From a virus: DNA of 22,597 nucleotides. The notes beneath the pieces were generated by a model. It had not been told where the DNA came from. It searched no databases and saw only the letters and a list, made by a program, of their open reading frames with translations. A program made the translations under genes and the position numbers. Positions 3,389 to 22,597 of the stretch are shown here, piece by piece. Location of the stretch: positions 1 to 22,597 of IMG/VR virus record IMGVR_UViG_3300037882_004970; one strand, 5' to 3'. Positions within the stretch are counted from its first letter, which is position 1. Every line of letters begins with the position of its first letter.

Positions 3389-5575
3389 ATGTCTGGGCTC
3401 CTCTCACCCGGCGTCAATTTCCAGGAGACAGCGCCCTCCACCGGCAGCGTGCAAGCGGCGGCTTCGGCCGTCCCGGCGTTCGTCGGCGTGTCGGAGCGTG
3501 GACCGATCGGTGAGCCGATCCTCCTGACCGGCTTCGCCGAGTACCGCCGGATCTTCGGCGGGTTCATCTCCGGCACCCACAAGCACCTCCCCTTGGCCGT
3601 CAAGGCCTTCTTCGATGAGGGTGGCGGCGCGTGCTACGTCTGCCGAGTCACTCACTACTCGGACGTCACCGATCCTGCGACTTCGACGGCCGTCAAGTCG
3701 TCCGTCGTGCTGGTCAACGGCGGCAATCCGAGCCCTGCCGTCCTCGAGGGGGCCGACTACCCACTCTACTTCTCCACCAGCACAACGCTACTCGTATCGG
3801 TCGACGGTGGTGGGAACGACTCTGCGGCCTTCACTGGCACGGCCGAACGGCAGGTGAGCAGCGGCGTCTTTCCGCTCAACCTCAACGACAACCAGACCCT
3901 CACCATCCAGGTCGACGCGCGGCCGCTGCAGACCATCACCTTCGTCGAGGGCGCGCTGGTCGTCGACATCGACGCCATCACCGCCGCCGAGGCGGCTGGC
4001 GTCATCAACTCGCAGCTCGTCGGCGCGCGTGCCTGGGTGCTCGGCGGCAACGTGGTGATCGAGAGTGACACCAAGGGGACCAGCTCGGTCCTCTCGGTGA
4101 CTGGCGGTACCGCGGCTGCCACCTTCGTGTTCGCAGAGACGGTGGCTGGCGCCGGCAACGTCGCCACCCTCGCAGCCGTGACTGCTGTCGAGGCCAAGGC
4201 CATCATCGAAGCCGGCATCAACGACGGCGACGGTGTTGTGGTCGACGCGACGGCTGACCACCTGGTCATCACCAGCGTGGCCACCGGCGATGACGCGACG
4301 CTTCAGCCCGACGCCTCCATCCTGACCGCCTTCGGCTTCGATGCTGGAGAGGTGACCGGTGCTGATGACGGCGAACTTGACGCTGCCCGCGTCGAGGAGC
4401 GCTATGCCTCCGGCCTCTCGTGGACGGCGACCGTCAAGGCGGCTACCAGCGGCGACGCTGGCCTGTTCGACCTCGTCATGAAGGACGCCAACGGCGTCGT
4501 CATCGAGACGTGGCGCAACCTGTCCAACGATCCCGAGGCCGAGGGCTACGCCCCCAACGTCCTGATTGCCGGCGGTAGCATCTTCACCTACGTGGATCTC
4601 GAGGCGGATGGCGCCCCGCGACCCGACAACGGTGTCTACACCCTGGCCGGTGGGAACACCGGTCTCAGCGGCATTGTCGACGCCGACTTCATCGGCGGAT
4701 CTGGCGCGGGTCGGACCGGCTTGCGGGCCCTTGACGCGGTGCTGGACCTGACCCTGCTCGCGGTCCCTGGTCGCACCTCCGCGGCCATCTGGAACGGTGT
4801 CTCGACCTACTGTGAGACGACCCGCGAGGGCTTCGTCTTCGGCATCCTCGACATCCCCGCCAACCAGACCGCTGCCCAGGCGATCACCCACGCCGACTCC
4901 ACCGCCGCGAGCGAGTTCACGGCGACCTACTGGCCGTGGGTCAAGGTTGCCAATCCGTCCACGGCCGTGTTCGGTGCGAACAACATCGTCCCGACCATCG
5001 ACATCCCGCCGTCCGGCCCGATGATGGGCGTCTACTGCCGCAACGATCGAGTTCCCGGCGGGGTGTACAAGAGCCCCGCGAATTACGAGCGGGCCAAGCT
5101 GTCCGTCATCGGACTGGTCAACACCGACGTCAACCAGGAGTCGGTGCGGGACCTGATTCACCCCAAGCGGATCAACTCGATCATCTCGTCGACCGGTCGC
5201 GGCATCTACGCCTTCGGCGGCCGCACCCGGAAGGGGACCGGCAGCTTCCCCTATATCGCGGAGCGGCGCGGCGCCATCCTGATCAAGCGGTCCATCAAGG
5301 ACGGTATCGCCTTCGTCATTGAGGAGAACAACGACGCCACCACCCGGCGTCGCGTCACCCGCAACGTCGAGGCGTTCCTGCTCACCCAGATGCGTCTCGG
5401 TGCATTCCGCTCCCAGGTTCCCAGCGAGGCCTTCACCGTCGTCTGTGACGAGACCAACAACCCGCTCGACGTCATCCTGCGCGGCCAGCTCATCGTCAAC
5501 GTCGGCATCGCCACGCAGAAGCCGGTCGAGTTCGTTTTCGTGAACATCGCCCAGGATACCCGCGGTCTGGCGTAA
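3389..5575 (+). CDS. Contractile tail sheath protein
   Basis: The N-terminus (SPGVNFQET, then VPAFVGVSERGPIGEPILLT and a phenylalanine-rich FFDEGGGACYVCRV) and the C-terminus (RINSIISSTGRGIYAFGGRT, VEAFLLTQMRLGAFRS, LIVNVGIATQKPVEFVFVNI) are the hallmark conserved ends of the phage tail sheath family. The sheath contracts around the tube and drives it through the envelope. At 728 residues it is longer than the usual 400-500. The excess lies in a central region, residues ~105-440, that carries two tandem repeat units (see the separate entry) and should face outward. A GGAGG at 3376-3380 lies 8 bases before the ATG. Very confident. Confidence 0.95.
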   Translation: MSGLLSPGVNFQETAPSTGSVQAAASAVPAFVGVSERGPIGEPILLTGFAEYRRIFGGFISGTHKHLPLAVKAFFDEGGGACYVCRVTHYSDVTDPATSTAVKSSVVLVNGGNPSPAVLEGADYPLYFSTSTTLLVSVDGGGNDSAAFTGTAERQVSSGVFPLNLNDNQTLTIQVDARPLQTITFVEGALVVDIDAITAAEAAGVINSQLVGARAWVLGGNVVIESDTKGTSSVLSVTGGTAAATFVFAETVAGAGNVATLAAVTAVEAKAIIEAGINDGDGVVVDATADHLVITSVATGDDATLQPDASILTAFGFDAGEVTGADDGELDAARVEERYASGLSWTATVKAATSGDAGLFDLVMKDANGVVIETWRNLSNDPEAEGYAPNVLIAGGSIFTYVDLEADGAPRPDNGVYTLAGGNTGLSGIVDADFIGGSGAGRTGLRALDAVLDLTLLAVPGRTSAAIWNGVSTYCETTREGFVFGILDIPANQTAAQAITHADSTAASEFTATYWPWVKVANPSTAVFGANNIVPTIDIPPSGPMMGVYCRNDRVPGGVYKSPANYERAKLSVIGLVNTDVNQESVRDLIHPKRINSIISSTGRGIYAFGGRTRKGTGSFPYIAERRGAILIKRSIKDGIAFVIEENNDATTRRRVTRNVEAFLLTQMRLGAFRSQVPSEAFTVVCDETNNPLDVILRGQLIVNVGIATQKPVEFVFVNIAQDTRGLA
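3971..4378 (+). repeat. Two tandem flagellin_IN-like protein repeats inside the sheath insertion
   Basis: At protein level, residues ~195-258 and ~262-330 of the sheath share one pattern. Each has a short helix (TAAEAAGVIN in the first, TAVEAKAIIEAG in the second), a strand that includes VVIES or LVITS, a glycine turn, and a closing strand. This resembles the flagellar hook IN motif (helix followed by 'l.ItS..tG') found in surface-exposed domains. The DNA is too diverged to be a recent duplication. The match is by eye. Confidence 0.5.
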
Positions 5576-7022: not shown

Positions 7023-9458
7023 ATGGCCTTCAACAGCTACGGTCTCGGCTTCGTCTTCAGCGCGAGGGATCTCGCCTCAGGCGTCTTCGACCGCATCTCT
7101 CGCGGATTTACCAAGCTCGACCTCGTCAGTGAGCAGGTGGCCCAGAACCTGGGTCAGCGCTTCACGCAGATGAAGCGTGGGTTTGCAGGCCTCGCGGCCG
7201 GCGCGGCCCTCTTGTTCCTCGCCACCCTCCCAACCGACAAATTTGCAGAGTTCGAGCTGGCGATCGCCAAGACTGGTGCGGTTGCGAACGCTTCAGCGAA
7301 GGACATGAAGGTCCTGACGGCTGCCGCTGGGTCATTGACCAACCTCGGCGTCAAGCCTGTTGAAGGCGCGAAGGCTCTTGAGATGTTGGCCTCACAGGGC
7401 TTCAACGCTCAGGACTCGATCGCCGGGCTCAAGCCGTCGCTGATGCTTGCCATCGGCGGCATGATCGAGGCTGAGGAAGCCACCAAGGCGATGACGTCGA
7501 CGCTCAACGTCTTCGGTCTCGGCATCGACCAGGCCGGCATCGTGTCTGACAAGCTCTTGAAGATTTCAAACGTCACCACGCTCAGGGCTGCCGATCTTGA
7601 GCTGGCCATGGGCACCGTCGGCCGCGGCGCCTCGGCGGCGAAGCAGGGCCTTGACGAGACACTCATTGCAATGGGCCTTGTGAAGGGCACCGGCGTTGAC
7701 GCGAGCGTGGCCGCCTCGTCGGTGTCGGCAGCCCTGGTGGAGATGGCCGCGAAGGCTGATGCGTTCAAGAAGATTGGCGTCAATGTAGTCGACGCTCAAG
7801 GCAAGTTCAGGCCGTTCCTGGACGTCATCCTGGATACCAACAACGCCCTGGCTGGAAAGAACCTCGACGACGCCAAGCGGGTCGATGCCATCAAGGACCT
7901 GTTCGGTCGTTTTGGTATGACTGCATTCTCGGCCGCCGTGTCGCAACTGGGCGGCAAGAACATCAAGGATGGGGCCGGCAACATCCTCAACATGGCAGAC
8001 GCCGTGGCCCATCTACGAAAGGAGATGGCCGGCGCTGGCGGCACCGCCCAGGCATTCGTTGATCGCATCATGAACACGTTCCAGAAGCAGAAGGATCGGA
8101 TGGCTGCGATCTGGGACAAGCTGGTCATCGAGTTCGGCCGGCCGTTCGCGGAGGTCCTCGGGCCGATCATCGGCAAGGTGGCCATGTTCTTCGAGTGGCT
8201 CACCAACATCATCCAGGCGACGCCGGCCCCCATCAAGCGGTTCATTGCAGGAGCTGTCGTACTTGCAGGCACGCTCTTGTTCGTCGGGTCGGCCATCTTC
8301 CTGCTGGTCAAGGGCTTCGCCTTCCTGCAGATAGCCGCCAAGGCGGGGCTGATCTCCATGATCCCGGCTTTGATCGTTGGGGCGAAGATCGCTGCGATCA
8401 TCGGGCTCGTAGCGGCCACGGCCAACGCCATGGGCTACACCATGGACGATGTCGCCAAGGGCGTAGGCTCGTTCGTCAAGAAGGTCTCCCTCTTTGGCCG
8501 AGCGCTCTTCGCGGTGTTCAGCCAGGGCGGCTGGACGGGCGAGCTGCGCAAAGAGCTCAACAAGACCGAGAACCAGGGGCTGAAGCAGTTCGTCATCACG
8601 CTCTACAGGATTGGCAGTCGGATCATCGCCTTCTTCAAGGGTGTCTGGGGGGCGTTCAAGGAGGTGGTCGGGCCGGCCGGCCCGGAACTCAGGAAGGCTC
8701 TGGCCGGACTCAACGAGACGCTGGATCGCGTTGGCATGGGCGCTAACAAGATGGGGGCGTCCTTCGTGGACGCCCTGCCCGGCATGGAGGGATACCAGAG
8801 CATCGGTGCGGCCATCGGCGCGACCCTCGGCGCGGTCATACGTGTCATGATGTGGGTGGCCACCAAGGTCGTCCAGGTGGCTGACCTGTTCATCATGGTT
8901 GGCGAGTTCATCGGGGTGGCCTTCGGGGCCATCTACGAAACGATTGACAGCATCGGCAGCGCTATTGGCGGAGCCTTCCGTCGAGCCAGTGCGGCCATGA
9001 TGGACTTCTTCGAGAAGGCCAAGTCAGGCGAGCTGTTCCTGGCACCGATGAAGCGGTTCGCTGACTCGCTCAACATCTCGCTGTCGAACCTGTACGACAC
9101 CATGATCCGCATCCTGAGGGAGCTGCCTGACTGGGCGCTGCCTGAGAATGTGAAGAACATCAAGCACACCCTGCGGACGACGGGGGAGATGGTGTCAGAC
9201 TCGAAGAGTCGTGCTCAGTTCGCGTCCCTTGGCCCCGTTGATCAGAAGGTGGTGACCGACCAGTCGGCATCTGCGGCCGCGCCCCTCATGGGCATCATGC
9301 AGGCGATGCAGCAGAAGCTAGATGAAGACAGGGGGGTGAAGAGCCAGGCCCAGGTCATCCAGCTCGTCATCGACGGCGCGAAGATTGCCGAAGTCGTCGC
9401 CAACCAGCAGGCCGCCCAGGCTACCCGGAGCTTCAAGCCGGTGACGGTGGCAAAATGA
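7023..9458 (+). CDS. Tail tape measure protein
   Basis: The 811-residue product begins with FNSYGLGFVFSARDLASGVFDRI and shows the TP901-type tape-measure core at residues ~70-330: FAEFELAIAKTGAVANAS, repeated short helices with LAMGTVGRGASAAKQGLDET, and ALVEMAAKADAF. Hydrophobic stretches lie near residues 53-70, 407-472 and ~593-640, as expected of a protein that is ejected into the cell envelope. Tape measures set tail length at about 0.15 nm per residue, which would predict a tail near 120 nm. The start has AAGGGG 6 bases upstream. The gene directly follows the chaperone pair, which supports the call. Its stop overlaps the next ATG (ATGA). Very confident. Confidence 0.93.
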   Translation: MAFNSYGLGFVFSARDLASGVFDRISRGFTKLDLVSEQVAQNLGQRFTQMKRGFAGLAAGAALLFLATLPTDKFAEFELAIAKTGAVANASAKDMKVLTAAAGSLTNLGVKPVEGAKALEMLASQGFNAQDSIAGLKPSLMLAIGGMIEAEEATKAMTSTLNVFGLGIDQAGIVSDKLLKISNVTTLRAADLELAMGTVGRGASAAKQGLDETLIAMGLVKGTGVDASVAASSVSAALVEMAAKADAFKKIGVNVVDAQGKFRPFLDVILDTNNALAGKNLDDAKRVDAIKDLFGRFGMTAFSAAVSQLGGKNIKDGAGNILNMADAVAHLRKEMAGAGGTAQAFVDRIMNTFQKQKDRMAAIWDKLVIEFGRPFAEVLGPIIGKVAMFFEWLTNIIQATPAPIKRFIAGAVVLAGTLLFVGSAIFLLVKGFAFLQIAAKAGLISMIPALIVGAKIAAIIGLVAATANAMGYTMDDVAKGVGSFVKKVSLFGRALFAVFSQGGWTGELRKELNKTENQGLKQFVITLYRIGSRIIAFFKGVWGAFKEVVGPAGPELRKALAGLNETLDRVGMGANKMGASFVDALPGMEGYQSIGAAIGATLGAVIRVMMWVATKVVQVADLFIMVGEFIGVAFGAIYETIDSIGSAIGGAFRRASAAMMDFFEKAKSGELFLAPMKRFADSLNISLSNLYDTMIRILRELPDWALPENVKNIKHTLRTTGEMVSDSKSRAQFASLGPVDQKVVTDQSASAAAPLMGIMQAMQQKLDEDRGVKSQAQVIQLVIDGAKIAEVVANQQAAQATRSFKPVTVAK

Positions 9459-13353: not shown

Positions 13354-14835
13354 ATGGCGATCATCCCGCGTCCACTCGACTACACCGACCGAGACTTCGA
13401 GTCAGCTCGAAGGCGTCTCTTCGACCTGGTTCGCTCGGTGCGGCCTGATTGGACCGACGAGTCGATCGCCAACATCGGCAACGTGATCATCGAGCTTGGC
13501 GCCCACATCGTAGACGTCCTCTGCTTCTGCATGGACTCCGAGGCCTTGGAGGCCTTTATCGCCTCAGCCACTCGTCGAGAGAGCATGATCGCCCTCGGCC
13601 GACTCGCCAACTACCGCCTCAGGACAGCCTCGGCAGCGACGGTCGGGGTGACGGTCACCCTCGACTCAGCCGCCCTCGACGACATCGAAATCCCGGCAGG
13701 CACCTTCGTTCGCAATGCCGATCCGGTCGACGTTGTAAGGTTCCAGCTCCTGGAGGATCTGGTCATCAACTCTGGCGAGACGTCTGGTTCGGCCGATGCT
13801 GAGCACTCCGAGAATCGACAGGTGGTGCTGGAAACGACCGGCACCGTGAACCTCGACGTGCAGCTCTCCGAGGGCCCGTACCTTGATGAGGGGATCGTTG
13901 TCAGCACCGTCGGTCAGGGCGTCTTCGAGGAGGTCACGAGCCTGATCTCGTCAGCCGCCGACGATGCCCACTACTCCGTCCTGGTCGATGCCAACGACAA
14001 GGCCACCGTCCGGTTCGGCGACAACGTCAACGGGATCGCGCCGACAGGCACTCTGACCATCACCTACAAGATTGGAGGCGGCGCCCGTGGGAACGTGGAG
14101 GCCAACAAGCTCAAGATCTTGGAGTCGTCCATCGTCGATGGGGGTGGTCGAGTTTACCGTGGGACGGTAACCAACCCAACAGCGGCCTCTGGTGGCGAGG
14201 AGCGCGAGGGTGTCGAAGAAGCCCGGATGTCCATCCCCGAGGCGATCCGAGCTGCCGGCGACCGCAGCGTCACCAAGGACGACTTTGAAATCAATGCTCG
14301 TCGCGTCCAGGGCGTCGCTCGAGCGCTGATGGCGAGCTCTGACGACGACGGGTCGGTACAGGAGAACACCGGTCACCTCTACATCGTCCCCGCCGGCGGC
14401 GGCATTGCCGCCAACGAGCTTCTGGCCGATGTTGTCGAGATGGTGACGGTGACCAAGCCGACGATGCCCACCTTCCAGGTGCTCGCATTTACGGCTGACT
14501 ACCGAAGCATCGACGTCTACGTCAGGGTCCACTTCTCCGGGCCTCCGTCTGCAACCGCCACCCTGATCCGGGCTGCTCTGACGGCCTTCTTCGAGCCGAC
14601 AAACGAAGATGGCTCCATCAACACCAACGTAGACTTCGGACTGAACCTGTCTGGTCAGGTGTTTGCCTGGGATCGTGTCCATCAGGCCATCCGCAGCGTA
14701 GCTGGCGTTCGACGGATCGCGCCGTCCGACCTCCGCCTGGACGACGCCCTGAGCGACGTGAACCTCTTGCCACGAGAGTTCCCAACGCTCGGTGAAGTGA
14801 CCATCATCAACGCCGCCAACAATCAGGCTGTCTGA
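13354..14835 (+). CDS. Baseplate J-like wedge protein (gpJ / T4 gp6-like)
   Basis: The 493-residue product starts with YTDRDFESARRRLFDLV and the helical block IIELGAHIVDVLCFCMDSEALEAF followed by ATRRESMIALGRLANYRL, a strong signature of the Baseplate_J family. Residues ~85-300 hold beta domains with the family-typical VRFGDNVNGIAPTGTLTITY. Later come AGDRSVTKDDFEINARRVQG and the alternating helix/strand C-terminus (TATLIRAALTAFF). The protein dimerises to build the wedge ring that holds the baseplate closed and expands on firing. It ends two bases before the accessory gene cluster. Very confident. Confidence 0.93.
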   Translation: MAIIPRPLDYTDRDFESARRRLFDLVRSVRPDWTDESIANIGNVIIELGAHIVDVLCFCMDSEALEAFIASATRRESMIALGRLANYRLRTASAATVGVTVTLDSAALDDIEIPAGTFVRNADPVDVVRFQLLEDLVINSGETSGSADAEHSENRQVVLETTGTVNLDVQLSEGPYLDEGIVVSTVGQGVFEEVTSLISSAADDAHYSVLVDANDKATVRFGDNVNGIAPTGTLTITYKIGGGARGNVEANKLKILESSIVDGGGRVYRGTVTNPTAASGGEEREGVEEARMSIPEAIRAAGDRSVTKDDFEINARRVQGVARALMASSDDDGSVQENTGHLYIVPAGGGIAANELLADVVEMVTVTKPTMPTFQVLAFTADYRSIDVYVRVHFSGPPSATATLIRAALTAFFEPTNEDGSINTNVDFGLNLSGQVFAWDRVHQAIRSVAGVRRIAPSDLRLDDALSDVNLLPREFPTLGEVTIINAANNQAV

Positions 14836-17595: not shown

Positions 17596-18920
17596 CCGAA
17601 TTCACGCTCCCGATCGTCCTCATTGACGATGCCCACGGGGAGAGTCCTGATAGCAGGCTCATCGTCATCAACACGGATCCTGGTGACGATGAGGTGGGCG
17701 CTCCGCGTGGCGGGGCCATAACCTTCGATATTATTGACACGGTCACTCCTGAGGACGGCGTCAAGGCTGACACCATCGAGGTCACCATTGAGGGTGCCCT
17801 GGCGTGGTCCAACGAGGCCGCTCAGGCCGGATTCTCTGGATCAGCTTCGGCGCTTGATGGTGGCGGCATTCGCCTGACCATCACCCGTGCGGCCAACTTC
17901 GACTCATCGCAGGTCGTCAACGTCACTGTGGCGGCCGCCTCGATCGATGGTGATGCCGATGTTGAGTCGTCATGGTCGTTCACCATCGAGGACTACAGCG
18001 CCCCTGAGCTGATCGGGGCGATTGCGGCAGGCCACCGACAGGTCAACCTGATCTTTGACGAGCCTGTGCAGATCCCTGATGGCTCGACCTTTGAGATCAG
18101 CTCCACCTCGGCGCCTGCCGTCGAGGTCGCCGTCGTATCTAGCGCCGTCGACGGGGCGACGATCATCCTCACGCTCGACAGGGATCTCAGCCCTGGGGCA
18201 TCATATGAAGTCACGGTCAACGGCGTCACAGATCTCGTGGAGAACGAGATCGCAGCCGACTCCACAGCGAGCTTCGCCGGCTTCACATGCAGGCAGCCCA
18301 GCGGTCGCCGGTTCCGCTTGTGGGAGATGATCCCCCGCTACAACAGGCTGGCCGACGACACCGGTGACCTGAAGATCCTCATCGACGCATGGCAAGAGCT
18401 GGTCGACCTCACCCTGTGCGACATCGACAACTTCAGCGATATTTACGACATCGAGCGAACCTCCGAGGCTGGCGTCGACCTCCTGCTGTTCCAGCTCGGC
18501 TGCCCCTTTGAGACAGCCCTGCTGCCCGTCGTCAAAAAGCGCAGGCTGGTGGGCGCCCTGACGGGCATCTACCAGAGCAAGGGCACGATCCGCGGAATGG
18601 TCAACGCCATCCGCTTCTTCCTCGGCATCGAGGTTGAGATTCGCCCCATCGGCCACGGCCTCATGCGGCTCGGCATCAGCGAGCTTGGCGACAACTGGGT
18701 GCTCGGCACCAGCGACCGACGGCTGATCTATTCCTTTGTCGTAGAGAGTCCTGTTATCCTCTCCGACGAGGACCGAGAGTCCATGCGCTCGATCGTCATG
18801 TACATGAAGCCTGTGCGAGAGCACCTGGCTGCGATCATCGAGCCGGCTGACGAGCCTGAAGACGACCACTGGATCCTCGGGCTCAGCGAGCTGGGCGTTG
18901 GGACCATCTTGGAGAGCTGA
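17592..18920 (+). CDS. Baseplate wedge protein gpI-like with two N-terminal Ig-like domains
   Basis: GTG at 17592 overlaps the previous stop and has GGAGG at 17583-17587. Residues ~240-400 match the P2 gpI tail family: IPRYNRLADDTGDLKILIDA, DNFSDIYDIERTSEAGVDLL, LGCPFETALLPVVKKRRLVG and YQSKGTIRGMVNAIRFFLGI. This part should join gpJ and carry the fibres. In front lie two beta domains. Residues ~135-232 are a clear SbsA-type Ig-like domain (VNLIFDEPVQIPDG, then LDRDLSPGASYEVTVNGVTD). Residues ~5-133 look like another Ig/cadherin-like module. P2 gpI is only about 180 residues, so more than half of the 442 is additional. Confident. Confidence 0.85.
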   Translation: MTEFTLPIVLIDDAHGESPDSRLIVINTDPGDDEVGAPRGGAITFDIIDTVTPEDGVKADTIEVTIEGALAWSNEAAQAGFSGSASALDGGGIRLTITRAANFDSSQVVNVTVAAASIDGDADVESSWSFTIEDYSAPELIGAIAAGHRQVNLIFDEPVQIPDGSTFEISSTSAPAVEVAVVSSAVDGATIILTLDRDLSPGASYEVTVNGVTDLVENEIAADSTASFAGFTCRQPSGRRFRLWEMIPRYNRLADDTGDLKILIDAWQELVDLTLCDIDNFSDIYDIERTSEAGVDLLLFQLGCPFETALLPVVKKRRLVGALTGIYQSKGTIRGMVNAIRFFLGIEVEIRPIGHGLMRLGISELGDNWVLGTSDRRLIYSFVVESPVILSDEDRESMRSIVMYMKPVREHLAAIIEPADEPEDDHWILGLSELGVGTILES

Positions 18921-20080
18921 TGAACCGCCGGGATTTTTTCCACCTGCAGGCAGTAACCGAAGGCGAACTCGACAGCGCCTTCGATGGTGCCGAAGACGCC
19001 ATCCGCGATTTCGCCGCTGACATCGGAGCCTTCGGCATCTTCAGCGGAATGGTCGCACAGGAACACGAGCCTGTCGCGAACATGACCCTGGACGTCACCT
19101 CTGGAACCGCTTACGACCGAGCCGGCCGCCGCATTCGCATCGGCTCGGAGCAGAACATCAGCCTCGCCCTGGATGAGGACGGGATCAGCACCACTGTCCC
19201 TGGGGCCGGTGATGAGCGGTGGATCAGCCTCTTCGTCGAGTTCGACCGCGAGCTGGACGACGAGCGTACCGACGGCTCGAACCAGCAGGTCTTCTTCATC
19301 CGCAATGAGAGCTACAGGTTCGTGGTGCGCCAGGGCGCCACGGCCGACATCGGCCTCGCCACCCGACCCGGCCTTGACGACGACCTTGTTCTGCTGTGCG
19401 ACGTGCGCATCGAGAACGCGCAGGCCTCCATCGAAGCGGCTGACATCAGCACGAGCCGGCGGCAGGTGGCGACCGTCTACACGGCCGATCTTGTCGGCTT
19501 CAACGAGGCTGAGTTTGAGGTCATCGACTCTGGCGATGACGTCCAGGCGGCGATGGCTGTCATCGACGCGCACCTGAACAACACTGGGAACAAGCACCCG
19601 GCCACCGCGATCACCACCGCCGCGACAGGGTGGCTGACCGCCGCGACCGTTCAGGCCATGTTCGCCGAGATCGTCGCCGACCTCGCAGATACCGGGGCGG
19701 CGACGTCTGGCTGTGATCGCATCGGCATCGCCGACCTCCCCAATTCGGGATCGTGGACGCCGGGTGCGGGCACGCTGATGACCTACATCGCGTCGCTGAA
19801 CACCCAGATCATTCGCACCCGCGCCAAGATGGCCTCGAAAGAGAACACCCACAGCGTGACCAATCAGGGCACTGGAACCACCGAGGTGATCACGCTGGGC
19901 GCTGACGAGCCCGCATTCCTGTCCATCCGTCTTGATGGCCCCAACCCCGTGCCCGGTGTCGAGCACCTGCTCGTCGTTGGCCCTCCGTATCTCGACGGGG
20001 CAAGCTGGAAAGTCGGCGTCCGAAATGGTACAGGCATTGATCAGGACTACACGGTCGGAGCGTGGTACATCATCCCATGA
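18920..20080 (+). CDS. Tail fibre-like protein (probable receptor-binding or fibre base)
   Basis: The 386-residue product starts at a TGATG overlap with gpI, where P2 encodes fibre gpH. Its N-terminus RRDFFHLQAVTEGELDSAFDGAEDA leads to a beta module with NMTLDVTSGTAYDRAGRRIRI. That phrase ('l.V..G.ayd..GrrI') is typical of phage fibre-attachment and distal-wedge proteins. A central helical segment (VQAAMAVIDAHLNN, VQAMFAEIVADLAD) is followed by a C-terminal beta domain ending in VGVRNGTGIDQDYTVGAWYI. No collagen or chaperone segment is visible. It probably links the wedge to the host surface. The role is inferred from position and motif style; the exact fibre type is open. Confidence 0.65.
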   Translation: MNRRDFFHLQAVTEGELDSAFDGAEDAIRDFAADIGAFGIFSGMVAQEHEPVANMTLDVTSGTAYDRAGRRIRIGSEQNISLALDEDGISTTVPGAGDERWISLFVEFDRELDDERTDGSNQQVFFIRNESYRFVVRQGATADIGLATRPGLDDDLVLLCDVRIENAQASIEAADISTSRRQVATVYTADLVGFNEAEFEVIDSGDDVQAAMAVIDAHLNNTGNKHPATAITTAATGWLTAATVQAMFAEIVADLADTGAATSGCDRIGIADLPNSGSWTPGAGTLMTYIASLNTQIIRTRAKMASKENTHSVTNQGTGTTEVITLGADEPAFLSIRLDGPNPVPGVEHLLVVGPPYLDGASWKVGVRNGTGIDQDYTVGAWYIIP

Positions 20081-20958
20081 CCAAGAAGATCATCAGGGCG
20101 GCGACCCCGCCCACGCAGCCGACGCCTGACGACCTCCGCCGCGAGGAGCGTGCCCTCGGGCTCAGCTTCCTTGACAGCCTGCCGGACGAAGTTCCGGGCG
20201 GGTTTGACTACGAAGCCATCGTCGAGAAGGTCATCGCAATCGCGATGGCCGAGCTGGCGAACGGCGTCAACGAGCCGCCCCGCTGGGCGAACCGAAACCA
20301 GCCGCACAAGGACGGGTGGTGGCGAATTGACAAGTACATCCGCATGCCGGACAGCCAGGTCGGGCTGACGGCTGATCGAGAGGTCAACGCCCATCTCAAG
20401 AAACTCGCCGACCAGATGGGGCTGAGCCTCGAGGACCTGTTCCCTGGGTCGAAGGCAGGCCTCTGCCTCGGCTCGGCCGAGGTGCGGAGCCGTCAAGGCG
20501 TGCCGTGGCCCGCCCATGTGCCGTACTACTACAACAACGAGTTCTCTTGGTGCGGCGCGTTCGTAGCCTGGTGCCTTGGCATGGCCGGCCTCCCCTTGAG
20601 GCTTCGTCGAGCCCTGATGTCCTGCTACAAGATGCTCATCCGCCTCGGTCACTGGAACGAAGTCCAGCGGTTCAAGCCCGACAACTTCATTGCAGATGTC
20701 AGCATTGATCCTCGCACCGCCCGGCGTGGTGACCTGCTCACCGTCGGCCGGAAAAAGGACGTCCGTCGAGGGAGCCACATCGTGATGGTGGTCAGCCGGC
20801 TCAGCGACAATGAGGTCGAGACCGTCGAGGGCAACGCCGGCTTCGAGGGGCGCGAGGGTGTGATCCACCGGACCCGCGTTTTCGAGTCGCCCGGATCCGA
20901 CGACTGGATCATCAAGAAGGGCTACCGCCTCAGCGATTCTGGCCTCTGGGTCCCTTGA
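20077..20958 (+). CDS. CHAP/NlpC-P60-like cysteine peptidoglycan hydrolase (probable endolysin)
   Basis: ATG at 20077 overlaps the fibre stop (ATGA), giving 293 residues. The catalytic part lies at residues ~150-255: Cys159 in SWCGAFVAWC, His234 in GSHIVMVVS, and a third polar residue near Glu251/Asn253 in VEGNAG, the arrangement of CHAP/TIGR02594-type amidases or endopeptidases. RRGDLLTV before the His is the typical 'rGDl' strand. The N-terminal ~130 residues (VEKVIAIAMAELANGVNEPP, WWRIDKYIRM) look like part of the same fold family, with an insertion holding LGSAEVRSRQG. No signal peptide is seen, so a holin would be needed if it lyses the host. A virion-associated hydrolase is the alternative. 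Confidence 0.78.
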   Translation: MTKKIIRAATPPTQPTPDDLRREERALGLSFLDSLPDEVPGGFDYEAIVEKVIAIAMAELANGVNEPPRWANRNQPHKDGWWRIDKYIRMPDSQVGLTADREVNAHLKKLADQMGLSLEDLFPGSKAGLCLGSAEVRSRQGVPWPAHVPYYYNNEFSWCGAFVAWCLGMAGLPLRLRRALMSCYKMLIRLGHWNEVQRFKPDNFIADVSIDPRTARRGDLLTVGRKKDVRRGSHIVMVVSRLSDNEVETVEGNAGFEGREGVIHRTRVFESPGSDDWIIKKGYRLSDSGLWVP

Positions 20959-20983
20959 CTTACGGGCCCGGCGCCCGTAATGT
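20955..20983 (+). promoter_or_regulatory. Promoter with an operator-like inverted repeat in its spacer
   Basis: TTGACT at 20955-20960 is a close match to a sigma70-type -35. A -10-like TAATGT at 20978-20983 follows after 17 bases; TGTAAA at 20981-20986 is a longer-spaced alternative. The spacer is filled by a perfect 8-bp inverted repeat, TTACGGGC at 20960-20967 and GCCCGTAA at 20973-20980, with a 5-base centre. No T tract follows, so a terminator is less likely. It reads as a regulated promoter for the exported-protein gene at 21017; its -35 lies across the hydrolase stop codon. Confidence 0.5.
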
Positions 20984-21016
20984 AAAAGGGCGCTGAATTT
21001 CGCGCTGGAGGTGTCC

Positions 21017-21421
21017 ATGAAAATCGCTCTCGCTCTCCTGCTCCTCTTCACCACCACCGGCTTCGCGAAGGGCGAAGTCGGCATGCCAGCGTTCTGCTCC
21101 CTCGGGAGCGTTGGTGGAATCGTGAGCCAGAACGCCGGGGCTGCCCGGCTCGCAAACGTCGCCGAGCAGCCCGTCGGCGCGCTGATGTCCATCAGCCAGG
21201 TCCGCCGTGACGGCCTTGGCCCCATCGGGCAGATGGTCATCTCCGGCATCATGACCACCCGCCCCTTCGCAAAGACGGCGGACATCACGGTGGCCATCGT
21301 GCCGATGATGGACGGCACGTACGACATTCGGGCTCTGTGGGTGACGAAGCAGCCGGATCGGAACCCTGATGAGGTATGGGTGCAGGTCCAGCTTTTCGGA
21401 GTCGGCGAGTCCTGCCTTTGA
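21017..21421 (+). CDS. Small exported protein of unknown function (moron candidate)
   Basis: GGAGG at 21007-21011 lies 5 bases before ATG 21017, giving 134 residues; a GTG at 21011 is rejected. Residues 1-17 form a signal peptide: MKIALALLLLFTTTGFA, with likely cleavage after Ala17. The mature part (~117 residues) contains two cysteines, near residue 27 (AFCSLG) and at the end (GESCL), which could form a disulfide. It has beta-like strands (ADITVAIVPMMDGTYDIRALWV, EVWVQVQLFG). The gene has its own promoter-like region and lies alone between the late operon and the opposite-strand operon. It may alter the host envelope or exclude other phages, but I recognise no family. Confidence 0.72.
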   Translation: MKIALALLLLFTTTGFAKGEVGMPAFCSLGSVGGIVSQNAGAARLANVAEQPVGALMSISQVRRDGLGPIGQMVISGIMTTRPFAKTADITVAIVPMMDGTYDIRALWVTKQPDRNPDEVWVQVQLFGVGESCL

Positions 21422-21667
21422 CTATTGAACCTGGGTCAGGCCAAGCAGCCACCCGGCAGCCCCTGCCAGGGCCAGCAGACCCAGGGCAATCCACAGCGAG
21501 ACCACGTGTCGGCGTAGACGCCTGAGCTGCTTCAGCATCGCTCGGCGCTCTTCCGCCATCTCCTCTCGAGCAGCCCGCTGCTCAATAAGAGCCTGGCTGA
21601 GCAGGCCTGCAATCACGCTGTACTCATTCTGTGGGATAACCACATGGACGGCGGTCGGCTGCGTCAT
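21422..21667 (-). CDS. Small tail-anchored membrane protein (holin or envelope-cassette member)
   Basis: ATG at 21667 overlaps the stop of the 38-codon gene (ATGA), so it is preferred to an in-frame GTG at 21682; the product has 81 residues. Residues ~25-53 are a charged helix, probably a coiled coil, ending in the basic cluster KQLRRLRRH. Residues ~55-77 are one transmembrane segment rich in Leu, Ala and Gly, followed by only four residues. By the positive-inside rule the N-terminus lies in the cytoplasm. Its stop abuts the stop of the exported-protein gene without a gap. A single C-terminal anchor is unusual for a holin but possible. Confidence 0.65.
   Translation of the reverse strand: MTQPTAVHVVIPQNEYSVIAGLLSQALIEQRAAREEMAEERRAMLKQLRRLRRHVVSLWIALGLLALAGAAGWLLGLTQVQ
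21431..21484. other. Inverted repeat with an inner hairpin at the convergent gene ends
   Basis: CTGGGTC at 21431-21437 pairs exactly with GACCCAG at 21478-21484. Inside lies a second hairpin, GGCAG and CTGCC at 21455-21467 with a CCC loop. The structure sits just beyond the + strand gene stop and inside the end of the minus-strand gene. No T tract follows. It could slow converging polymerases or be simple GC-rich coding sequence. Confidence 0.25.
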
Positions 21668-21780
21668 GGGAACACCGAGCACCCTTCTGGCAGGAATCCG
21701 TGGTGGCCCAGAAGCCCAGACAGCGCGAACAGGCCGCTAAAAACCAAGCACATAAGCAGGCCCAGGCGCCCCAGTGTCAC
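21664..21780 (-). CDS. 38-residue hydrophobic membrane peptide
   Basis: This short frame fills the space between two larger minus-strand genes. It starts with GTG at 21780, overlapping the TGA of the coiled-coil gene (GTGA), and stops with TGA at 21666-21664, overlapping the next ATG (ATGA). Exact double coupling is strong evidence that it is translated. The product has one hydrophobic stretch at residues ~5-25 (LGLLMCLVFSGLFALSGLLG), then a short polar tail with two His and one Cys. It should be a single-span membrane peptide. Possible roles are a small holin/antiholin or a partner of its neighbours. No family is recognised. Confidence 0.6.
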   Translation of the reverse strand: MTLGRLGLLMCLVFSGLFALSGLLGHHGFLPEGCSVFP

Positions 21781-22289
21781 GGGGTGCTCGCCGGTGCTGC
21801 GGTCGTGTAGATGATGATGGGCTGAGGCGCAGCGACCGGCGCTGCGACGGCCGCTGGCAAAGGTGCCGCAGGCGGGCTTTTCACCACCGCCCAGACAGCC
21901 GTCCCCACAGATCCAAGCATCCCCAGCACGAAGACGCTCAGCAGGACCGGTATCCAGCTATTGCGAGCCTGCTGGGTCTCGACCTTCCCAATCCGCTTGT
22001 CAATCTCCTTCAGCTCTCCAGCGTGCTCTTCAAGCAGCTTGTCTCTATTTGCGTTCGACGGGCCCTCGCCAGCCAACTGCTCCTTGATGGCGCCTAGCTG
22101 CCTGCCCATATCCCGAAATCGATCTTCGACATTGTTCTCGTGCTTCGAGAGCTGATCGCCCAGCTTTTTCTCGTGGGCGGCGAGCTGCTCACCGAGACGC
22201 CTTTCGTGGCGCTCGAGCACGTTGCGGACCTGTTCAAGGATGGTGGAGGAGCTTGGGTCAATCATTGAAATCTCTGGTTGGCTGGTCAT
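21777..22289 (-). CDS. Coiled-coil membrane protein with Pro/Ala-rich tail
   Basis: ATG at 22289 overlaps the lipoprotein stop (ATGA), giving 170 residues. Residues ~17-110 are helical coiled coil. Within it, residues 28-60 are three 11-residue repeats (HERRLGEQLAA, HEKKLGDQLSK, HENNVEDRFRD), and 61-71 continue the phase. Residues ~112-136 form one transmembrane segment (WIPVLLSVFVLGMLGSVGTAV). The last ~34 residues are Pro/Ala-rich (SPPAAPLPAAVAAPVAAPQP), like linkers that span the periplasm. If the N-terminus is cytoplasmic, the tail is periplasmic. Inner-membrane spanins normally have an N-terminal membrane segment and a periplasmic coiled coil, so this is not a standard one. Function unknown. 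Confidence 0.75.
   Translation of the reverse strand: MTSQPEISMIDPSSSTILEQVRNVLERHERRLGEQLAAHEKKLGDQLSKHENNVEDRFRDMGRQLGAIKEQLAGEGPSNANRDKLLEEHAGELKEIDKRIGKVETQQARNSWIPVLLSVFVLGMLGSVGTAVWAVVKSPPAAPLPAAVAAPVAAPQPIIIYTTAAPASTP
22077..22208 (-). repeat. Hendecad (11-residue) coiled-coil repeats
   Basis: Four consecutive 33-base units encode residues 28-71 of the coiled-coil membrane protein. His starts the first three units at residues 28, 39 and 50, and a Leu-Gly or equivalent falls at positions 5-6 of each. An 11-residue period predicts a straight or right-handed coiled coil rather than the usual heptad type. Confidence 0.6.
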
Positions 22290-22489
22290 GAGCAGGCCCA
22301 CATCCTGGCGATCGTCGCCACGGTACCTTTGTGGCCTGAGGCCTCAAGGTACACGCACAGCTCGCGCTTGATGACCCGCACCACGCGGTCAGATCGGCTC
22401 TCTTTGGACGGTTCTGGTGTCGGCTCGGAAGGCTGGACGCCTGAGCAGCCGAGGGCGAGGATGGAGGCCAGTAAAAACTTCATGGCCAT
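22286..22489 (-). CDS. Small lipoprotein (o-spanin-like candidate)
   Basis: The 67-residue product starts at ATG 22489 (a second ATG lies two codons on; no clear ribosome-binding site decides). Residues 1-15 are a lipoprotein signal with the lipobox LALGC, Cys15 being the lipidated residue. A Pro/Glu/Ser-rich linker follows (SEPTPEPSKES), as in Rz1-type outer-membrane spanins. The C-terminal ~35 residues are a helix-like domain with Cys45 and Cys66 (RVIKRELCVYLEASG ... MWAC), which could form a disulfide. Its stop overlaps the start of the coiled-coil membrane protein (ATGA). Spanin function fits size, linker and neighbours, but a non-lytic envelope lipoprotein is equally possible. Confidence 0.7.
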   Translation of the reverse strand: MAMKFLLASILALGCSGVQPSEPTPEPSKESRSDRVVRVIKRELCVYLEASGHKGTVATIARMWACS

Positions 22490-22528
22490 GATGGTATCAG
22501 GGATGCTGGCCGTGTGGCCAGATGTGCC

Positions 22529-22597
22529 TCAGAAGGGAATGGGGTCATCATCGGCGGGCGGGGAACCGCCGCCCTGGCCGCGGCCCCCGCCCTGACC
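22529..22597 (-). CDS. ssb: C-terminal end of single-stranded DNA-binding protein (partial)
   Basis: Reading the minus strand from the right edge in this frame gives 22 residues then TGA at 22531-22529. They comprise a Gly/Gln/Arg-rich linker (GQGGGRGQGGG), then SPPADDDPIPF. That ending is the acidic tip of bacterial-type SSB, where the final Asp residues and Pro-Phe bind replication and repair partners; the extra Pro before IPF is a small variation on the usual DDDIPF. The OB-fold lies beyond the window. The gene runs in the same direction as the lipoprotein gene, 39 bases downstream, and probably shares its transcript. I see no promoter in that gap. Confidence 0.8.
   Translation of the reverse strand, partial: GQGGGRGQGGGSPPADDDPIPF

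Follow-up and report, generated by a model that had tools for sequence, protein, structure and literature searches.

The window, i.e. the whole stretch of DNA analysed here, is a virus record of 22,597 bases that carries a contractile tail operon on its plus strand. This operon includes the genes for the sheath (3389-5575), the tape measure protein (7023-9458, recognized by a PHROG profile), a baseplate J-like protein (13354-14835) and a fibre (18920-20080), and the same strand also encodes a CHAP-type cysteine hydrolase of 293 amino acids without a signal peptide (20077-20958). The hydrolase matches the Pfam CHAP family at 7.3e-5, just under the curated cutoff, TIGR02594 at 6.9e-5, below the cutoff, and a PHROG endolysin at 0.0012; it is probably an endolysin. 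A further plus-strand gene (21017-21421) encodes a protein of 134 residues that has a signal peptide at its N-terminus and, in the mature part, two cysteines; it is a predicted secreted orphan between the CHAP gene and the cassette described in the following. Searches of Pfam, PHROGs and NCBIfam matched it to no family, and its single-sequence AlphaFold prediction (pLDDT 40) gives no usable model. A search of genome contigs with the baseplate J protein found no host genome.

A minus-strand cassette behind ssb

Convergent with this last gene, four genes occupy the minus strand from 22489 to 21422, the stop codon of the last one (21422) abutting that of the 134-residue protein (21421). In order, P1 (22286-22489) encodes a predicted lipoprotein of 67 amino acids, P2 (21777-22289) a 170-residue protein with a hendecad coiled coil followed by one transmembrane (TM) segment, P3 (21664-21780, GTG start) a single-TM peptide of 38 residues and P4 (21422-21667) a tail-anchored coil of 81 residues. 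All four are open reading frames, supported for P2 by AlphaFold, TM and charge predictions and for P4 by its TM segment, and the junctions P1/P2, P2/P3 and P3/P4 are 4-nt overlaps (ATGA, GTGA and ATGA). These coordinates and frames agree with a sequence-only reading of the same DNA, which had also taken all four products for envelope proteins, a view that the membrane genes kept in this slot by relatives (see below) support. Between 20000 and 22597, the signal peptide of the 134-residue protein is the sole other TM candidate found.

Upstream of P1 on the minus strand, the contig end cuts through ssb, leaving a C-terminal fragment (22529-22597) that reads GQGGGRGQGGGSPPADDDPIPF up to its stop codon. 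Its translation ends in GGGSPPADDDPIPF, with the acidic tip DDDPIPF, and its Gly/Gln-rich linker and tip are the same as in the ssb of the related contig L097 (which ends in SSPIPDDDPIPF) and similar to those of L098, whose ssb matches TIGR00621 at 5.5e-35. The ATG of P1 lies 39 nt past the ssb stop codon. Because ssb is directly upstream on the same strand, the cassette can be taken, from gene order, as the last part of a replication operon that converges with the tail/CHAP operon. The sequence-only reading had described it as lying opposite a lysis/tail operon, which is right as to the strand and lacked the ssb C-terminus upstream. No promoter or terminator pattern was found in 20900-22597, and a hairpin between ssb and P1 is no better than in shuffles.

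When codon usage is scored against the tail genes of the same window, the annotated frames of P2 (+0.13) and P4 (+0.06) come out on top, all remaining frames being negative, and that of P1 is marginal (-0.01). The score of P3 is negative (-0.24), yet the best among its frames; its TM segment has a hydropathy of 2.29, and 0.175% of composition shuffles yield an open frame with an equally hydrophobic TM segment. Of the four genes, P3 is the one we are least sure of. This bears on the idea that the cassette consists of unrelated small membrane genes (morons), gathered at the operon end without a shared function and with P3 perhaps not a gene at all. Overlaps of the same 4-nt type are indeed common in this genome, occurring at 6 of the 23 junctions of the plus-strand operon in the window, and the relatives described below hold no conserved association of these genes. 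Against this stand four consecutive overlapping genes that each carry a membrane or lipid signal, as well as the recurrence of membrane clusters at the same place in relatives, and we consider such a set of unrelated genes distinctly unlikely. Being ordinary in this genome, the overlaps are likewise no sign of a dedicated P1-P4 complex.

Predicted localization and topology

P1 starts with a signal sequence that ends in the lipobox ALGC (MAMKFLLASILALG before C-S, i.e. MAMKFLLASILALGC-S) and continues with a serine at position +2, a Pro-rich linker and two further cysteines. It is the only lipobox frame found in all six frames of the 22.6-kb window; the same scan of related contigs yielded 36 in 2.05 Mb, i.e. 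about 0.018 per kb. In enterobacteria, a serine at +2 of a lipoprotein predicts the outer membrane, and by this enterobacterial rule P1 would be an outer-membrane lipoprotein. Neither Pfam, PHROGs, NCBIfam nor PADLOC holds a convincing family match for P1 (the best in NCBIfam is sub-cutoff at 0.13), and tblastn found no homologue in the INPHARED phages. Two further explanations of this gene were rejected: membership in a lipoprotein family of the relatives L054, L036 and L052, which has two cysteines at similar spacing but scores no better than shuffles, and a single frameshifted P1-P2 protein, for which no slippery site was seen on reading the sequence. The P2 frame also lacks any start ahead of 22301, which adds only four residues.

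In P2, residues 16-75 follow a hendecad period of 11/3 that none of 5,000 shuffles reached; no fit was obtained with a plain heptad. AlphaFold, run on the single sequence, models a helix over residues 15-74 with a block of pLDDT 90-96 over residues 21-70, which bears out the earlier description of a hendecad coil ahead of the TM segment. The model continues with a helix at 79-110, a low-confidence TM helix at 112-136 and a disordered Pro/Ala tail; by sequence, the TM segment spans 115-133 and precedes an Ala/Pro-rich C-terminal tail. Family matches of P2 in Pfam, PHROGs, NCBIfam and PADLOC are of the coiled-coil type only, and a search against solved structures returned chance-level matches. 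A match to MbeB_N (22.7 bits, cutoff 22) was taken as one of coiled coils or charged helices. P4 consists of a charged helix (RAAREEMAEERRAMLKQLRRLRRH) and a C-terminal TM segment (55-73); its weak match to phrog_3121 was also put down to the charged helix, since this profile matches the unrelated control genomes of B. subtilis, M. jannaschii and H. volcanii as well.

The charges around these TM segments are unevenly distributed, with KRIGKVETQQARNSW before and one lysine after that of P2, and KQLRRLRRH before and none after that of P4. By the positive-inside rule, P2 and P4 would be oriented N-in/C-out, with their coils in the cytoplasm. The only positive charge of P3 precedes its TM segment, which would leave a short outside tail with one cysteine. 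Among the four products, only P1 could then reach the outer membrane, so that the sequences do not suggest a coil-built bridge across the periplasm. The single membrane-spanning complex that the sequence-only reading had envisaged is thus not supported, given the predicted cytoplasmic coils, the single product able to reach the outer membrane and the commonness of the overlaps.

Coils that face the cytoplasm, encoded by genes that are likely co-transcribed with ssb, could also be pictured as anchoring phage DNA replication to the membrane, in the manner of p16.7 and p1 of phi29, which organize replication at the membrane. P2 and P4 would then be inner-membrane coils made together with SSB, and P1 would be a passenger. 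Such an anchor leaves the lipoprotein unexplained, however; no DNA-binding domain was found in the cassette proteins, and the ssb-linked relatives L097 and L098 have no such proteins, so that we hold it to be highly improbable.

The post-tail slot in relatives

P1-P4 are orphan genes, as far as homologues are detectable by sequence. Searches of all four in Pfam, PHROGs, NCBIfam and PADLOC gave only generic coil, charged-helix or chance-level matches; tblastn of the INPHARED phages with P1, P2, P4 and the CHAP protein found no relative, nor did scans of viral contigs with P2 alone or the CHAP protein alone. Furthermore, there was no convincing match for P2 and P4 in 50 related records, or for any of the four in 142 loci. 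The check for this gene order in related phages, which the sequence-only reading had proposed, thereby came out negative. As no homologues were found, we instead used the fibre gene and the baseplate J protein to collect relatives.

Sequence downstream of the fibre gene is long enough for this comparison in 48 relatives. In 24 of them, the first 6 kb past that gene contain two or more small genes for TM proteins or lipoproteins, nearly always on the tail strand. Several genes in this slot match profile models: those of L054 (4.7e-8) and L100 (2.7e-7) match PHROG holins, one of L064 weakly matches an Rz-like spanin (9e-4), and L028 and L050 have an Amidase_2 endolysin (3e-10) and a papain-type peptidase (2.3e-7), respectively. 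The holin-like gene of L054 shares a 4-nt overlap with one for a small lipoprotein. Proteins with the layout of P2 and P4, i.e. a coil and a C-terminal TM segment, are found in the same slot of L113, L141 and L051. The one of L113 (112 amino acids) aligns with XhlA along nearly the whole model at E = 0.03 and has weak matches to phage hemolysin/holin families. In L141, a lipoprotein, a helical protein with a C-terminal TM segment, a TM protein and a tail-anchored coil follow each other, so that the gene types are ordered as in P1-P4 without sequence homology. Homology of P2 to the proteins of L113, L141 and L051 was not accepted (15-33 of 2,000 segment shuffles); what the comparison suggests is a shared layout.

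The closest synteny is found in L097 and L098, where the plus-strand tail genes are followed on the minus strand by ssb and genes for a UvrD-like helicase, an SbcC-like ATPase and a Rad52-like protein, the latter three named by eye from their sequences. When the helicase and the Rad52-like protein were used as queries, these two contigs were the only close members. Between ssb and the tail-side gene of L097 there is no gene at all, so the slot need not be occupied. In L098, it holds a plus-strand membrane cassette of three genes, encoding a protein of 86 amino acids with one TM segment, one of 114 with an N-terminal TM segment and a coil, and one of 170 with the lipobox AVSC and a C-terminal TM segment (L098:12695-13207). 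This last gene is directly convergent with ssb, and its product has, by sequence, the layout by which unimolecular spanins are defined (PMC6139136). No endolysin was recognized beside this cassette.

The survey also brought up genes of separate interest. L111 has a minus-strand lipoprotein gene right after the fibre gene (L111:11402-11662), another envelope gene opposite a tail operon, and small Cys-rich lipoproteins are encoded in the post-tail regions of L104 (15786-16058), L134 (15262-15570) and L130 (13157-13528). A post-tail protein family comprises L024:17945-18382, L063:19777-20268, L064:18429-18776, L068:20209-20745, L105:14986-15453, L111:14316-14885 and L129:15620-16030. Most of its members have a signal sequence; a motif like GxxGVWF, which in two of them reads APxAGML, and a periplasmic coil are followed by a conserved C-terminal TM segment with the pattern WW..P.LW. 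An N-out/C-in topology like that of this family has been proposed for possible unrecognized i-spanins (PMC6139136), and the family may be a new spanin type. Lastly, part of the 413-residue protein encoded after the fibre gene of L097 (9724-10965) resembles the sheath family phrog_15814 (2.3e-17), so that a sheath domain has apparently been put to use in a protein other than the sheath.

A candidate lysis module on the replication strand

The reading we favour, and to which we give an even chance of being correct, is that P1-P4 make up a quickly evolving membrane module of the lysis type that has its place on the replication strand, downstream of ssb, instead of after the tail genes. Lysis had been among the roles offered by the sequence-only reading, and it gains support from the lysis-type membrane genes that relatives keep in the slot, from the unimolecular-spanin-type cassette that L098, the nearest in synteny, holds in exactly this place, and from the recurrence of coils anchored by a C-terminal TM segment. 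Starting from what the sequences show, namely the genes, the topology that sequence rules assign to their products, ssb as a neighbour and a membrane/lysis slot in relatives, we infer a lysis function, a division of labour and interactions among P1-P4 as follows. The CHAP hydrolase would accumulate in the cytoplasm and, for want of a signal peptide, would need a holin; the TM candidates near its gene are P3, P4 and P2, encoded on the opposite strand. P3, with P4 and/or P2, may assemble in the inner membrane and time its opening, the N-in/C-out coils of P2 and P4 having the C-terminally anchored layout of XhlA/gp24.1-type holin components or of antiholins. P1, an outer-membrane lipoprotein of o-spanin size by prediction, might aid the disruption of the outer membrane once the wall has been cut.

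There are precedents for such proteins. XhlA and SPP1 gp24.1 (PF10779), components of two-protein holins, have a short N-terminal coil and one C-terminal TM segment, work with a second holin and are encoded near an endolysin gene, as the cassette lies near that of the probable endolysin; moreover, the SPP1 lysis genes 25 and 26 are transcribed early (PMC6316719). P4 agrees with XhlA in both layout and size (under about 100 amino acids), whereas P2 has the same layout but is longer and ends in a Pro/Ala-rich tail. Neither matches PF10779 in a Pfam scan to E=1, XhlA has been described for Bacillus phages, and its partner XhlB, with two TM segments, has no counterpart here: P3 has one, and no two-TM protein is encoded near the cassette. 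Another parallel, drawn by description, is F352_034 of the Campylobacter phage F352, a putative antiholin of 61 amino acids whose function is predicted and whose small size, C-terminal TM segment and N-in/C-out topology recall the cassette proteins; the lysis genes of this phage are not clustered (PMC7692668).

The main gap in the lysis reading is the missing i-spanin. Like the lipoproteins of the two-component spanins (Rz/Rz1, PseT.3/PseT.2 and LysB/LysC), P1 is small and predicted to reach the outer membrane by its signal (ALGC, serine at +2), has a Pro-rich stretch and extra cysteines, and belongs to a set of coupled genes close to that of a probable endolysin. However, no coil with an N-terminal TM segment is encoded on the minus strand, as the sequence-only reading had recognized in setting this layout apart from the canonical pair; P2 and P4 have the wrong predicted topology for an i-spanin, and the sole candidate on the plus strand, the 134-residue protein at 21017-21421, has a signal-peptide-like N-terminus and no evidence of a coil. 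Taken together, P1 and P2 recapitulate the lipoprotein, coil and C-terminal TM segment of the unimolecular spanin T1 gp11, but gp11 is one protein, whereas these are two in different frames, P1 without a C-terminal TM segment and P2 without a lipobox or a signal sequence that would export its coil. No spanin could be found in 91 of the 677 phages of Kongari et al. (PMC6139136), who considered inner-membrane partners of other topology possible. That P1 and P2, with P3/P4, act as a non-canonical system, disrupting the outer membrane with a C-terminally anchored inner-membrane partner and switched on from the replication operon, strikes us as very doubtful.

Other observations also count against lysis. 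None of the four proteins shows homology to the holin, spanin or XhlA models of Pfam, PHROGs and NCBIfam, the slot of L097 is empty, the cassette of L098 lacks a recognized endolysin, P1 resembles the L054-type lipoproteins no more than shuffles do, and the module of the relatives is on the tail strand, here on the opposite one. Furthermore, co-transcription with ssb would suggest early or middle expression of the cassette, which would also fit the main rival to the lysis reading, an early envelope-modifying cassette for superinfection exclusion. P1 would then mask or block an outer-membrane receptor, as the small lipoproteins Llp of T5 and Cor of N15 and phi80 do, and P2-P4 would act on DNA entry at the inner membrane. 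P1 is similar in size to these exclusion lipoproteins, is likewise predicted to reach the outer membrane and is possibly early, and orphan, quickly replaced genes would suit an arms race. Still, P1 has no sequence match to Llp or Cor, which are not accompanied by three inner-membrane genes, and the exclusion systems known to us use one or two proteins. Searches of Pfam, PHROGs and PADLOC with the cassette proteins gave no exclusion or defence family, and what relatives keep in the slot is of the lysis type. We regard exclusion as rather unlikely; the control of DNA entry, which had been raised from the sequence as well, found no support.

The genes of the cassette, which the relatives do not share, are orphans in a slot whose kind of content is already known; unusual are their strand and the missing i-spanin. 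If the lysis reading is true, this uncultured group of contractile-tail phages would contain an orphan lysis module on the replication strand, a placement that would uncouple the timing of lysis from tail expression and whose nearest precedent is SPP1. It would also provide material for understanding how the outer membrane is opened by phages in which no spanin is recognizable, 13% of those surveyed from Gram-negative hosts (PMC6139136).
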